Source of the DNA: a virus
IMG/VR virus record: IMGVR_UViG_3300018432_000035
Location: 1 to 30,296 of that record
Reading direction: 5' to 3' (one strand)
DNA: 30,296 bases
In this document: piece by piece, positions 22,519 to 26,820 of the stretch
Layout of the letters: each line of letters starts with the position of its first letter
How positions within the stretch are numbered: the stretch's first letter is position 1
The notes under the pieces: model-generated
The model's database searches: none
The model's input: the letters and a program-made list of their open reading frames with translations, nothing else
What the model was told of the DNA's origin: nothing
Program-made: the position numbers and the translations under genes

Positions 22519-23685
22519 TTAGCCGATCAGGATGGCGATGTTGTCCGACTTCACGGCGCCGACGCCCCAGGCAAGGCCGATCTCGTATTTGATCTGCCTA
22601 TACTGACGGTAGAGCGCGACTTCGAACGAGATCCCGGAATAGGGAGCCGTTACGATGGTGCGGTCATCCGCCATGTCCATTGCGACACCGGTCGCGTCGA
22701 CAGGAACGGCCGGAGTGCGGGTCGCCAGGACAATCGCGTCACTGGAGAACAGCAGGTTCGGCGTGTAGCTGTTGCCGACCGTCATGGCGACGCCCGAGGC
22801 GAGCGAAGCCCGGAGACCAGGACCACCGAGGGTGATGGTGCCAGGAGCCGCAACACCAGCCACAACAACGTATTTGTTGGTGTCGCCAGCGAACGTGACG
22901 ATGTCACCGGCCAGGACCGTGCCTGTGCCTGTGACGAGCGGGATCGAGGTCGTGCCGACCGCGAACGGTCCGCCGCCGCCCGTGACGTAGGCCGCGCCTG
23001 TGCCCTTGGTTACGGGTCGAACACCCGGAGAGTTGTGGATGCTCGCGCCTTCGAGCCGACCGATGGTGCCTTCGCGGAGTAACTCGTCCGTGCCGGCTTC
23101 GTTGGCCTTGAAGAGAACGCTCTGCTTGCCGCGGATGTTGGCCATCGCCGCCGAGCCGAGCACAAGCTCGCGCATCATGGGCGCACCGTTGTCGTCGAGG
23201 ATCTGCATAGGACCTGCGATATCCGACAGATCACCAGCAGTGCCGAACGGCGCCGTGCCCGCAGTGCCATAAGCGCGGGAAGCCGCCTTATAGCCCTTGA
23301 GAGCGATGTCCATTTCGACTTCATTGATCAGGGTCCGGAAACCCTGAGCGAACTGTTGCTGAAGGACCGACTGAGCACCAGGACCGCCGTTATTGAGCGA
23401 CAGCTGCTCCTCGCCGTTCCAGCGGATCGGGACATACCGAGACTTGTCGATCGTGAGATCGATGCCCGACATGACCTGGTCACCGTCGTTCGGCGCCGTG
23501 ACGCCAGGGGTGATGTCAGCGGCAGTTGCAACCGGAGTCACGAAGCTGCGGACAGTCTGGCCCTTGGCGGCGCGGGCCACGTCCGGGTCACGCGACACGG
23601 ACGGAATAAAACCGATCAACTCTCGCTGAACGGTGTTGAGGGCTGCATAGATGATCGGGATCAGCCCCGTCAGTGTATTAGCCAT
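22519..23685 (-). CDS. Major capsid protein, P22 coat (gp5)-like
   Basis: This 388-residue protein opens MANTLTGLIPIIYAALNTVQ with RELIGFIPSVSRDPDVARAA, the recognisable start of P22-type coat proteins (HK97 fold). The segments PVATAADITPGVTAPNDGDQ, YVPIRWNGEEQLSLNNGG and the C-terminal PYSGISFEVALYRQYRQIKY agree. Residues about 225-310 are a Gly/Thr/Val-rich beta insertion comparable in position to the P22 I-domain. The ATG at 23685 has AAGGA 8 nt upstream. The mature shell is built with the help of a scaffold, probably the gene immediately upstream. Confidence 0.92.
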   Translation of the reverse strand: MANTLTGLIPIIYAALNTVQRELIGFIPSVSRDPDVARAAKGQTVRSFVTPVATAADITPGVTAPNDGDQVMSGIDLTIDKSRYVPIRWNGEEQLSLNNGGPGAQSVLQQQFAQGFRTLINEVEMDIALKGYKAASRAYGTAGTAPFGTAGDLSDIAGPMQILDDNGAPMMRELVLGSAAMANIRGKQSVLFKANEAGTDELLREGTIGRLEGASIHNSPGVRPVTKGTGAAYVTGGGGPFAVGTTSIPLVTGTGTVLAGDIVTFAGDTNKYVVVAGVAAPGTITLGGPGLRASLASGVAMTVGNSYTPNLLFSSDAIVLATRTPAVPVDATGVAMDMADDRTIVTAPYSGISFEVALYRQYRQIKYEIGLAWGVGAVKSDNIAILIG

Positions 23686-23783
23686 TGCTTAAGTCCTTTC
23701 CAGATGGACGATAGGGTTCAGAAAAGTTCGACCATCCGGTCGAGAGCGCCAGTTACCCATCCAGGCCCGGCTGTTGTAGGCGT
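23686..23783 (-). promoter_or_regulatory. Coat-gene leader with GGAT-loop hairpin
   Basis: The 98-bp gap before the coat gene holds a 6-bp perfect hairpin, TCGACC-GGAT-GGTCGA on the coding strand (23743-23728), followed by AC and four T residues, then a normal ribosome site (AAGGA) further down. The T-tract is too short for a convincing terminator. The GGAT loop is the same as in the two hairpins before the scaffold gene, which suggests a shared RNA-binding or processing role; this is inference. No promoter is evident. Confidence 0.5.
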
Positions 23784-24587
23784 TTAGTCGACGAGGATGT
23801 AACCCTCGCTCATTTTGGCGTTCTTCTGCAGAGTAGGCAGAGCTTCAAACTCCCTGCGAGCGATGGTCTTTTTACCGGAGCCATTGGTGTTGACATTCCG
23901 GGCAGCGCCGTCGCCGCGATTACCAGTCCCTTTCAGGATTTGGTCCTTGGAGGGGTATTGATCGATAAGGATTTCCATAGCCTCGTCGAAATCGGCCAGG
24001 TCACCGGGTCGAACACGGGAGAAGATCTTGTTCCCGTCGGAGCCGTAGCCGACGAGCTTTCCGCCCTCCTCGATCTTGAATGCCGCCCCGAAACGAGCCT
24101 GCACCATATCGTGAGGAATAGCGACCTTCTCAGCGATGACCTTGGAGCCCTTGAAGGCACCAGCGATCTTTTCGCTGTTATACAGATTGCGAATATCGTC
24201 CCGCTCCACTTCGGCCCTTTTCAGAGCCTCTGTCGCGGCTTTGTTGGCTGCTGCAACCTGTTCCTCCGCGGACCGCTTGGCTGCGGCCTTGATCTCCTCG
24301 ACCTGCCCTGCTTTGATGAGGTCGCCGTCCTTGATGTTCTTCGCCAGCTCGAGAGCCTTGCGCGCGGCTTCAGCGTCTTCAATACCGGCAAAATCTTTCA
24401 ACTTTGCTTCGGCTGCTTCTTTCGCCTCGCGATGCCCTTGGGCCTCGCGATTAAGCTGCGCGATCTTGCCGACCGTGCCGACAGCGTCGAACTCGTGGTC
24501 CTTGCCGTCGTCATGAGTGTAAACGGGCTTGCCGTCTTTCACTTCAGCGTAAACAACGCCGTCCTTTTCAATGGTCTTGAGCTTCAT
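23784..24587 (-). CDS. Capsid scaffold-like protein (DUF6651-like)
   Basis: This 267-residue protein lies directly upstream of the coat gene. It opens MKLKTIEKDGVVYAEVKDGK, then TVGKIAQLNREAQGHREAKE, and has a long Lys/Glu/Ala-rich helical middle (residues about 40-145) and a C-terminal part ending QKNAKMSEGYILVD. This resembles the DUF6651 group of phage proteins encoded beside P22-like coats and fits a helical assembly scaffold. Scaffolds bind coat subunits inside the procapsid and are released or recycled. The start codon lacks a close ribosome site in the linear sequence; a hairpin appears to bring one near (see leader). Scaffold function is inferred from position and composition. Confidence 0.8.
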   Translation of the reverse strand: MKLKTIEKDGVVYAEVKDGKPVYTHDDGKDHEFDAVGTVGKIAQLNREAQGHREAKEAAEAKLKDFAGIEDAEAARKALELAKNIKDGDLIKAGQVEEIKAAAKRSAEEQVAAANKAATEALKRAEVERDDIRNLYNSEKIAGAFKGSKVIAEKVAIPHDMVQARFGAAFKIEEGGKLVGYGSDGNKIFSRVRPGDLADFDEAMEILIDQYPSKDQILKGTGNRGDGAARNVNTNGSGKKTIARREFEALPTLQKNAKMSEGYILVD

Positions 24588-24634
24588 CTGCTTACTCGGG
24601 CATCCGCCCGCTCCTTGTAAGGGGCATCCGCCCC
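24588..24634 (-). promoter_or_regulatory. Scaffold-gene leader: two GGAT-loop hairpins, bridged ribosome site and mini-ORF
   Basis: On the coding strand, hairpin B (GGGGC-GGAT-GCCCC, 24634-24621) is followed by TTAC, then AAGGAG (24616-24611). Directly abutting it is hairpin A (CGGGC-GGAT-GCCCG, 24610-24597), then 9 nt and the scaffold ATG (24587). With hairpin A folded, AAGGAG sits 9 nt from the ATG; unfolded, it is 23 nt away. When unfolded, AAGGAG is instead 7 nt from an ATG inside hairpin A that reads Met-Pro-Glu-stop (24603-24592), ending 4 nt before the scaffold start. The same frame is also open from an ATG in hairpin B (11 codons). Confidence 0.6.
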
Positions 24635-24670
24635 GGGCACCTGCTCCAGATCCCTGGTAGCAGGCAATTC

Positions 24671-25477
24671 TTAAAACTCAACTATAGGTCTCGCTGTGCA
24701 GCGACACTGGATCTCTTCACCGGGCTTCGGACCGGAATCGCTCCAATTGTAGGTGACGCCTTCACGAACCCTGTGTTCTGACCGAACACGCTCGTCCAAT
24801 GACGTTGACCACTGGTATTTGTCGATGCCAGCCTCAGTCTGGCGCACTCGATTAAGAGTGCCGTTGAACTTGGCTGCCTGGTCCCGGGCGATGAGCCGTG
24901 CCCGCGACTTGCCGAACTCGAAACTCTCCGAAATGGTCTTCTCGATTGACCGGTTCGTAGATCCGGCCGTGATTTCTTGCAGCAGGGTGTTCTCGAGCCG
25001 ACGAGCGACGTCATCGGAAAGATTTTTGACCAGGGCCACGTTGCGCCTCGTCGCCAACTGGATGTGCGGTTGCACCTCTGGCTGTGCGACGAGGGCCTTT
25101 AGGTCGACCCCGAGTGCTTTACGGGCCGTAGCAGTAAATTCCTCACGGTGACGTTCCTCCTCATCGCGGAAGGCGTCGTTGAATCGCTTCGCCACGGGGA
25201 CGAGCAGCCCGCCCCATACTCGACGCAAGCGTCCTACTGCCGTGCTCGTCAAACTGCCGGGTTCCGCTCCTGCCGCGCGCCACAGATCGCTCTTATCGAT
25301 CTTGGCAGCTCGTGCCAGGCGTTCAGCCTCTTCTACCTGCCCGGCCCGTAGCAACCCAATGATGATCTGACGCAGCTCCACTTCGACTGCGATACTCGGC
25401 GTAACCTCGTTCAGGACGATGCGTCGATCTCGGAATAGACCTCGATCCGGCACCATCTGGTGAATGTCATAGGTCAT
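24671..25477 (-). CDS. Mu gpF / SPP1 gp7-type head morphogenesis protein
   Basis: This 268-residue protein has an N-terminal helical part and, from about residue 165, the MuF domain: ARLIARDQAAKFNGTLNRVR, TEAGIDKYQWSTSLDERVRS, EHRVREGVTYNW, then PGEEIQCRCTARPIV. The E-H-R and the C-R-C near the C-terminus are the conserved His/Cys positions of this family. Such minor head proteins associate with the portal and procapsid and may be injected. The start overlaps the 448-residue repeat gene by 4 bp (ATGA). In most phages the MuF gene follows the portal directly; here four genes intervene. Confidence 0.88.
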   Translation of the reverse strand: MTYDIHQMVPDRGLFRDRRIVLNEVTPSIAVEVELRQIIIGLLRAGQVEEAERLARAAKIDKSDLWRAAGAEPGSLTSTAVGRLRRVWGGLLVPVAKRFNDAFRDEEERHREEFTATARKALGVDLKALVAQPEVQPHIQLATRRNVALVKNLSDDVARRLENTLLQEITAGSTNRSIEKTISESFEFGKSRARLIARDQAAKFNGTLNRVRQTEAGIDKYQWSTSLDERVRSEHRVREGVTYNWSDSGPKPGEEIQCRCTARPIVEF

Positions 25478-26820
25478 GCTGCCAGGGCCAAGATCAGTTG
25501 ATTATCATATTCGACCGCCCAATCGGGGTCGTGATTACCGTCTACCGCGGCCCCCAACGTGATCTGGCCCCGGGCTTGGCCTGTAACGCCGGCCCTGACC
25601 TGGACCGCCGACGACAACTGAAGGACTGCCGCACCGAGACCCTCGACTGCAGGAGGCAGGACGATCGCCGGCTGCTCAACTCGCCCTGTGGCCTGCGCCG
25701 CAAAGGAAATGACGGCGCCGACTGAACCCTGGACGAGCTGCAGCGGAGCTGCTTCGACGGCGCCCCGGGCTGACCCGGCAAACGATAGGCGCCCTGTTGC
25801 TTCGCCACTTCTGGTAGCTGGCCTGGTGACCCCACGGGCACTGGCCGAGAAACTGATGACGCCGATCGAGGCCCCGAGCCGAGGAGCGATCGTCTCGCCA
25901 AATGCCGCCCCGACAAACCCTGTCGAAACCTGGGCCGTGCCCCCTGAACCATGCGCCCCGAGAGCCCGGGCACGGAACGTGATCTCAGCTGCGGCCTGGA
26001 CCGTGATCCTGCGGAAAGCCTGACCGTAAGCAGCCCCGGTGAGACTGATCTCCCCGTAAGCCTTACCTGAGACCACCCGCAGCGGAGCCCGGAATCCGCC
26101 CGACAAGGACGTCGGGACTGGTGCCGGGGGTTGTTCAGGCTCCTCTTCACCACCCTCGGCCGTGCCAAAAGCGAGCCCAAGGAGGGCCATCTGGCCCGAG
26201 ACGCTACCAGCGTATCCAACGACACCCGAAGCGGCGCCGGAAAGCCTCGGAGACCCCGTCGCGGTGCCTTCGACTGGTCCTTCCATGATGCCGACGGCGG
26301 CACCAGTAAGGGAGATAGTGCCTGCGGCCGACGCATAAATCCCGAGCGAGGCTGTTGCCGAACCCGAAATGGATAGTGTGGCAGTCGCGGTGCCCGTTAT
26401 GGTCTCGACGACCGTCCCGGTGGCCGTACCGCTGTAGGAAAGCGTCCCGGAGCCCGTGCCGACCTGGACCCGAACACCAGTTGCGGCGCCCGAAGCCGCC
26501 AGAGTGGCGCTTGCTGTTCCCGTAACCGGCCCGGTGAATGTGCCGCTGGCCGTTCCAGATAGTGTTAGTGTCCCGGCGCCCGTTGCACCATAACCGACAG
26601 CGCCTGTCGCTGTTCCTGTGAGACTGGACGTGGCTGCCGCGGTGCCAGTTTGAACCCGAACGCCGGTTGCGGCGCCCGTAAAGGCTGTCTGACCCGCTGC
26701 AGTGCCGAAATAAGCCGGCGTGAAAGTGGCAGTCGCAGTGCCCGTAAGTGAGAGCGTCCCGACGCCGGTTCCTGTGACCTCAGCTGGTAGACCCGCTCCA
26801 GCAGCAAGAAGGAGACCCAT
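25474..26820 (-). CDS. Gly/Thr/Ala-rich repeat virion protein
   Basis: This 448-residue protein is built from about 18 degenerate repeats of 20-22 residues. Block 1 (residues about 17-220) has units such as GTGSGTLSYSGTATGTV and GAGTLTLSGTASGTFTGPVT. A Glu/Pro linker follows (GGEEEPEQPPAPVPT, about 223-237). Block 2 (about 250-430) is more diverged, with units such as GKAYGEISLTGAAYGQAF and GEATGRLSFAGSARGAV. The end is a non-repeat cap (PDWAVEYDNQLILALAA). The N-terminus is weakly hydrophobic but not a clear signal peptide. Its place between portal and MuF genes suggests a virion component. A beta-solenoid fibre or head decoration is possible; no named family is recognised. Confidence 0.75.
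   Translation of the reverse strand: MGLLLAAGAGLPAEVTGTGVGTLSLTGTATATFTPAYFGTAAGQTAFTGAATGVRVQTGTAAATSSLTGTATGAVGYGATGAGTLTLSGTASGTFTGPVTGTASATLAASGAATGVRVQVGTGSGTLSYSGTATGTVVETITGTATATLSISGSATASLGIYASAAGTISLTGAAVGIMEGPVEGTATGSPRLSGAASGVVGYAGSVSGQMALLGLAFGTAEGGEEEPEQPPAPVPTSLSGGFRAPLRVVSGKAYGEISLTGAAYGQAFRRITVQAAAEITFRARALGAHGSGGTAQVSTGFVGAAFGETIAPRLGASIGVISFSASARGVTRPATRSGEATGRLSFAGSARGAVEAAPLQLVQGSVGAVISFAAQATGRVEQPAIVLPPAVEGLGAAVLQLSSAVQVRAGVTGQARGQITLGAAVDGNHDPDWAVEYDNQLILALAA
25530..26772 (-). repeat. ~18-unit degenerate 20-22 aa repeat array in the 448-aa protein
   Basis: Units share a G-x-[AG]-x-[GA]-x-[IL]-[ST]-[LF]-[ST]-G-x-A-x-G core and begin with GT, GA or GS. In block 1, unit starts fall at about residues 17, 39, 59, 80, 101, 121, 143, 164, 185 and 205, so spacing is 20-22. 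The nucleotide repeat is degenerate. Two blocks are separated by an acidic Pro-rich hinge at about 26115-26155. Confidence 0.7.

Follow-up and report, generated by a model that had tools for sequence, protein, structure and literature searches.

The scaffold gene of this phage is preceded by a tandem array of three short hairpins, each exposing a GGAU tetraloop, and the leader of the major capsid gene carries a two-hairpin version, hairpins 1 and 2. The comparison of related leaders makes it almost certain that this GGAU hairpin array is a real conserved RNA element, a judgement that rests on base covariation and on the constancy of the loop. To judge by its placement and conservation, it seems to be an undescribed RNA element that controls capsid building.

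The window, that is, the whole stretch of DNA analysed here, is a complete IMG/VR virus record of 30,296 bases. On its minus strand, the scaffold gene is followed by the major capsid gene, and the parts discussed below are the following:

23784-24587, minus strand: scaffold gene, 267 aa, matching Pfam DUF6651 and phrog_784, with a weaker match to phrog_206 head scaffolding protein
22519-23685, minus strand: major capsid protein gene, 388 aa, phrog_283, P22-coat-like
24639-24665, minus strand: hairpin 1 of the scaffold leader, GCCUGCU-A-CCAG-GGAU-CUGG-AGCAGGU, from the fold, alignment A3 and RNAalifold
24621-24634, minus strand: hairpin 2 of the scaffold leader, GGGGC-GGAU-GCCCC, from covariation (helix 4)
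24597-24610, minus strand: hairpin 3 of the scaffold leader, CGGGC-GGAU-GCCCG, 5 bp (helix 5), the hairpin of an earlier note on this DNA
24611-24616, minus strand: AAGGAG in the linker between hairpins 2 and 3, the strongest SD-like word in the window's scaffold leader
24592-24603, minus strand: mini-ORF ATG-CCC-GAG-TAA, beginning in the loop of hairpin 3
23748-23771, minus strand: hairpin 1 of the capsid leader, GCC...CCU-GGAU-GGG...GGC, matched by covariance model R1
23728-23743, minus strand: hairpin 2 of the capsid leader, UCGACC-GGAU-GGUCGA
23700-23707, minus strand: CCAUCUGG, directly upstream of the capsid-gene SD, pairing with CCGGAUGG in the minimum-energy fold

Elsewhere in the window, a glycine/alanine/threonine-rich repetitive ORF of 448 aa (25474-26820) lies upstream of a Mu-F-like gene and has no PHROG match.

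Architecture and conservation of the GGAU hairpins

In scaffold leaders, hairpins 2 and 3 are simple, whereas hairpin 1 is a compound structure whose outer stem reads GCC...GGYGC. Hairpin 1 of the window is also compound, has its GGAU loop at 24653-24650 and is equivalent to the conserved GCC...GGYGC outer stem of the relatives. Neighbouring loops are spaced by 17-27 nt, and the final loop lies mostly 18-25 nt upstream of the ATG. The ribosome site is usually located directly 3' of hairpin 3, and in some phages that have no SD-like word after this hairpin its GGAU is the sole candidate ribosome site. In the capsid-gene leaders the hairpins stand farther from the start codon, with hairpin 2 tens of nt upstream. 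Covariance model R1 matches the scaffold leader of the window at 24596-24667 with 59 bits, the window itself being part of the source alignment of R1, and the capsid leader at 23719-23773 with 23.9 bits (E 0.003). In phages of gamma- and betaproteobacteria, a terminator-like hairpin followed by a T run is often found amid the genes of the head cluster, immediately 5' of hairpin 1 (L093:2398-2419), and in HK639 the hairpin upstream of hairpin 1 is annotated as a terminator.

Relatives of the scaffold were collected from viral contigs, bacterial genomes and named phages, yielding 225 loci with 190 distinct leaders. When tetraloop hairpins with a 4-bp stem were counted over the window and 83 related loci, GGAT led the coding-strand loops by a wide margin (104, the next loop reaching 44), and GGAT-loop hairpins number 22 on the reverse strand. 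Across the 190 distinct scaffold leaders the loop counts are 299 for GGAT, 32 for GGAA and 29 for the next loop outside the GGA type. A test anchored on GGAT alone, in which no stem was demanded, found the second pair out to be Watson-Crick in 92% of cases over 92 non-redundant leaders, against 32% (maximum 40%) when the partners were shuffled; within the coding region, pairing around GGAT stays at background level.

Covariation points in the same direction. When given an alignment of 55 leaders, RNAalifold unprompted predicted three hairpins, with double changes in 13 of 15 pairs. With the structure specified as the three hairpins, the outer stem of the first included, 90.3% of the cells are paired and 180 cells show double changes, against 57 in shuffles. 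The covariation score of 0.516 compares with 0.179 for shuffled data and was reached by none of 500 shuffles, and it falls to 0.05-0.09 when the partners are slid by 1-3 columns. Hairpin 2 (helix 4) is 98.1% paired, with double changes in 5/5 of its pairs. The leaders in this alignment had been preselected for at least two GGAU-type hairpins, and the unselected loop-anchored test is therefore the cleaner of the two. An unchanging loop carried on freely changing stems is what identifies this as a conserved RNA element. The array is kept in relatives from alpha-, beta- and gammaproteobacteria and from planctomycetes, with a constant loop and compensated stem changes, and diverged relatives (L006, L008, L067) have stem-loops in the same place with loops such as GGGAA, AGGAA, AGTAA and AGGA.

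Two simple readings of the motif are discarded on this evidence. A DNA site read by a protein is ruled out by the compensated variation of the arms and by clusters that lie strictly on the coding strand, and mimicry of the SD is ruled out by the loops, which are GGAU, GGAA and GGAC, with no GGAG seen.

At gathering scores, Rfam 15 has no family match in the window. At relaxed E-values the element was likewise unmatched by Rfam 15, RF01731 (TwoAYGGAY) included, in the leader region of the window and in six loci; the element thus adds a structured RNA family absent from Rfam 15. In the open-access literature we found a description of neither the GGAU hairpin element nor DUF6651.

Distribution of the element and its association with the scaffold

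Within 2.17 Mb, 208 tandem clusters were found, 137 of them in scaffold leaders, 64 in capsid-gene leaders and seven elsewhere, three of these seven also preceding a capsid gene; the opposite strand of the same 2.17 Mb has none. Fifteen diverse phage records, two of which are missing 0.7-0.9 kb at one end, contain no tandem GGAN-loop hairpins beyond the scaffold and capsid genes. As expected of an autogenous operator, the element is confined to the assembly genes of its presumed regulator. The sole clear case outside scaffold and capsid genes is a copy before an ORF resembling the terminase small subunit (L028:721-795).

A covariance model was also scanned, with a coarse first filter and without conditioning on the scaffold, over 294 + 395 + 397 genomes from three orders (1,086). 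Strong matches in the three orders occur only beside DUF6651 scaffold or capsid genes, and they include three genomes (G446, G702 and G711) outside the hosts reached by protein search. Two marginal matches of 31 bits, L271 and L272, fall within open reading frames of bacteria; in the second, an ABC-transporter permease ORF of a Phyllobacterium-order bacterial genome, a short tandem repeat of GGCCGGATGGCC mimics two hairpins (L272:1525-1560). The scan of a fourth order, that of Comamonas, gave zero matches, even in a genome that carries a diverged element. The element is present in HK639, a lambdoid E. coli phage, and some DUF6651 phages (L056, L075) are without it.

Among capsid-gene relatives gathered independently of the scaffold, the element occurs in 32 of 46 loci with a DUF6651 scaffold and in 0 of 28 without one (Fisher p = 5e-10, a test that is confounded by phage relatedness). 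In these relatives the portal gene is present both with and without the element. When the proteins of four reference phages were compared with the 15 records, the scaffold was found in 15/15, the portal in 14 and the phrog_283 capsid protein in 10. Since most of the records had been found through the scaffold, its universality is by construction, and the informative part of the comparison is that no protein besides the scaffold is universal. On this sequence evidence, the element tracks the scaffold and not the capsid protein. The capsid protein is an unlikely partner, because the same scaffold and element accompany two capsid families, phrog_283 and phrog_247.

The predicted structure of the scaffold (mean pLDDT 82.4, pTM 0.43) combines a small domain of strands at its N-terminus with long helices; the model shows no recognised RNA-binding fold, and its comparison with solved structures returned no match. 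The N-terminal 218 residues are similar among the scaffolds, and the C-termini appear divergent in phages with the other capsid family (A1 columns 220-285), as would befit a modular coat-binding end.

A putative protein-read operator

As the loop is invariant while the stems vary freely, something would seem to read the loop sequence on a helix, and this reader is probably a protein. The scaffold is the candidate ligand, with a likelihood that we put a little below even. A similar, slightly less than even, standing is given to the fuller reading of the array as a protein-read mRNA operator, most likely bound by free scaffold and exerting post-transcriptional feedback. We infer all three of its parts, namely binding by a protein, the scaffold as that protein and repression as the effect. 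Free scaffold protein would bind the leader hairpins and, since hairpin 3 abuts the ribosome site in most relatives or carries it in its loop, a protein sitting on hairpin 3 would block initiation. Unassembled scaffold would repress translation of the scaffold and perhaps also that of the capsid protein, and ongoing assembly would draw scaffold into procapsids, so that supply would track demand. Such an arrangement may represent a new loop-specific RNA-protein pair.

The P22 scaffolding protein represses its own synthesis post-transcriptionally. The matching of scaffold supply to capsid assembly is a phenomenon long known from P22, for which, to our knowledge, no RNA target has been established; a compact RNA element, found also in HK639, makes this question testable. 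The present system resembles P22 in having the scaffold gene beside the coat gene and in the proposal made here that unassembled scaffold feeds back on its own production. It differs in that P22 gene 8 begins 13 nt after gene 1, without such a leader or hairpins (no GGA-loop hairpin was found in the gene 8 leader), and in that the P22 scaffold family is distinct from DUF6651, as far as can be told from sequence. The coat-protein operators of RNA phages (MS2 type) are small start-site hairpins in which the loop sequence matters. The GGAU element shares with them a small hairpin at the start site, a loop whose sequence matters and a structural protein as presumed repressor, and is distinguished by its setting in a dsDNA tailed phage, its tandem hairpins, its different loop and its still putative ligand.

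The reader might instead be a host RNA-binding factor other than CsrA (e.g., S1, an RNA chaperone or a nuclease) that sets the translation or stability of the capsid mRNAs. A factor shared by every host group would suffice, given that the element is kept in planctomycetes and in three classes of proteobacteria, and the 17-27 nt spacing of the loops resembles multivalent binding. However, host targets would then be expected, yet the strong matches in the 1,086 genomes, scanned with the coarse first filter, lie only beside a phage scaffold or capsid gene, and the restriction of the element to DUF6651 phages would be left unexplained; we regard this alternative as having a modest chance, well below that of the scaffold. 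Among nucleases, T4 RegB recognises GGA; a search for a RegB-like nuclease gave no match in 25 records, and its positive control was likewise silent.

Turning back to the scaffold as the proposed reader, simple occlusion is unfit for the capsid-gene leaders because of the distance, tens of nt, between hairpin 2 and the start codon. In these leaders, CCAUC segments and hairpins with complementary loops hint that an extra RNA layer might exist. In the minimum-energy fold of the window's capsid leader, CCGGAUGG (23739-23732, in hairpin 2) pairs with CCAUCUGG (23707-23700) just before the SD. Of the 46 non-redundant capsid leaders, 16 contain CCATC on the 3' side of hairpin 2, where shuffles that preserve base composition only give 3.9. 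In addition, five capsid leaders (L086, L193, L199, L226 and L246) have a hairpin with an AUCC or GUCC loop and complementarity to hairpin 1, and the capsid proteins of this group are 323-328 aa long and belong to phrog_247 where tested. It is possible that the CCAUC(C) segments or the AUCC/GUCC-loop hairpins constitute an RNA switch upstream of the capsid-gene ribosome site. The most inclusive scheme, in which the scaffold would be a sequence-specific reader of tandem GGAU tetraloops in scaffold and capsid leaders alike, with a competing CCAUCC/AUCC-loop RNA switch in the capsid leaders, across a widespread group of tailed dsDNA phages, is put forward tentatively and is rather unlikely to hold in full.

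The same enrichment of CCATC and the same five leaders, from the other capsid family, could also favour a function of RNA only, by which the hairpins would shield the mRNA, set the structure around the start or operate via loop-loop pairing. Stability alone, however, would leave the loop sequence unfixed, the complementarity of the segments to their own hairpins is only slightly greater than that to the hairpins of other leaders (mean for hairpin 1, 7.39 against 6.85), and a counterpart of CCAUC was not seen in scaffold leaders, all of which makes this reading improbable.

Less likely accounts: ribosome-site bridging and CsrA

Hairpin 3 had been interpreted in the earlier note as a bridge that brings AAGGAG close to the scaffold ATG when folded and, when open, switches the ribosome to a Met-Pro-Glu mini-ORF. 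The hairpin was correctly described there but is only one third of the array: hairpin 2 (24634-24621), although within the region that the note covered, hairpin 1 (24665-24639) and the capsid-leader pair (23771-23728) were absent from it. The geometry is borne out on the minus strand. AAGGAG at 24616-24611 lies 23 nt from the scaffold ATG (24587-24585) and abuts the 5-bp GGAT-loop hairpin at 24610-24597, and removal of the 14 nt of the hairpin leaves a spacing of 9 nt. The ATG inside the hairpin (24603-24601) is 7 nt from AAGGAG and opens Met-Pro-Glu-stop, whose TAA (24594-24592) ends 4 nt before the scaffold ATG. Bridging is thus exact in spacing in the window phage, and T4 genes 25 and 38 were rightly cited as precedents for it (PMC3014915).

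The comparison of relatives' leaders that the note had suggested does reveal compensatory stem changes. The hairpin is real and under selection, it belongs to the scaffold gene, and it may plausibly be linked with control of the scaffold supply at the post-transcriptional level. The purpose assigned to the stem is not supported. Of 67 leaders, four have an SD-like word in the linker between hairpins 2 and 3, against 43 that have one downstream of hairpin 3, ahead of the ATG. Preservation of the stem therefore does not serve to shorten the distance between AAGGAG and the ATG. The window phage, with its AAGGAG upstream of hairpin 3, is unlike most relatives in this respect: it alone shares with T4 genes 25 and 38 a distant SD with a hairpin in between, whereas its relatives retain the hairpin without the upstream SD, and joint conservation of the two is limited to the same 4/67 leaders. 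Neither AAGGAG nor the mini-ORF is conserved, and the relatives keep the stem with the ribosome site 3' of hairpin 3. The loop ATG is supplied by the conserved CGGAUG; in 47 of 53 leaders its frame continues beyond the point where the scaffold gene starts, and Met-Pro-Glu-stop is the shortest frame in the set; the mini-ORF is therefore regarded as a by-product. Bridging would also leave hairpins 1 and 2, the invariant loop and the capsid-gene copy unexplained. As an account of the element it is very improbable, and a bridge or mini-ORF switch, if there is any, is at best peculiar to the window phage.

Another feature of this leader is of the same local kind. The stems of hairpins 2 and 3 are alike in the window phage and can therefore cross-pair, in competition with hairpin 3: the minimum lies at -38.7 kcal/mol, compared with -38.0 when both hairpins are enforced, and the folding model assigns 17% to the state with both. 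This cross-pairing is a peculiarity of the window phage.

CsrA targets are short hairpins with GGA in the loop (PMC7366521), which makes host CsrA the obvious candidate for a CsrA/RsmA operator. The GGAU element resembles CsrA/RsmA target hairpins, the mimic sRNAs (CsrB, RsmZ) and TwoAYGGAY (RF01731) in its several short GGA-exposing hairpins, about 20 nt apart and near the ribosome site, where its sites are in tandem. It differs from them in presenting a GGAU tetraloop on a C-G pair: the base preceding GGA is paired in most hairpins, mostly as C-G, and the usual unpaired ANGGA context is therefore missing. It also differs in being limited to two phage genes, in occurring in hosts without detectable CsrA and in having no Rfam match. 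Of 29 host genomes, 17 gave no match to Pfam CsrA (PF02599), among them every one of the 12 alphaproteobacteria and five betaproteobacteria, four of these genomes being MAGs that are possibly incomplete, and the prophages of these CsrA-negative hosts bear the element or its diverged form. Host CsrA is thereby ruled out as a general partner, and a phage-encoded CsrA was found in only one of 39 element-bearing phage records. Binding of these hairpins by host or phage CsrA is accordingly the least probable reading of all, with a very small chance of being correct. The single phage-encoded case is Pseudomonas phage D14P, whose CsrA-family gene lies at 34738-34890 of BK061589.1, and in P. aeruginosa PA7 a CsrA-family gene (2428618-2428770) is located ~17 kb from a DUF6651 scaffold.
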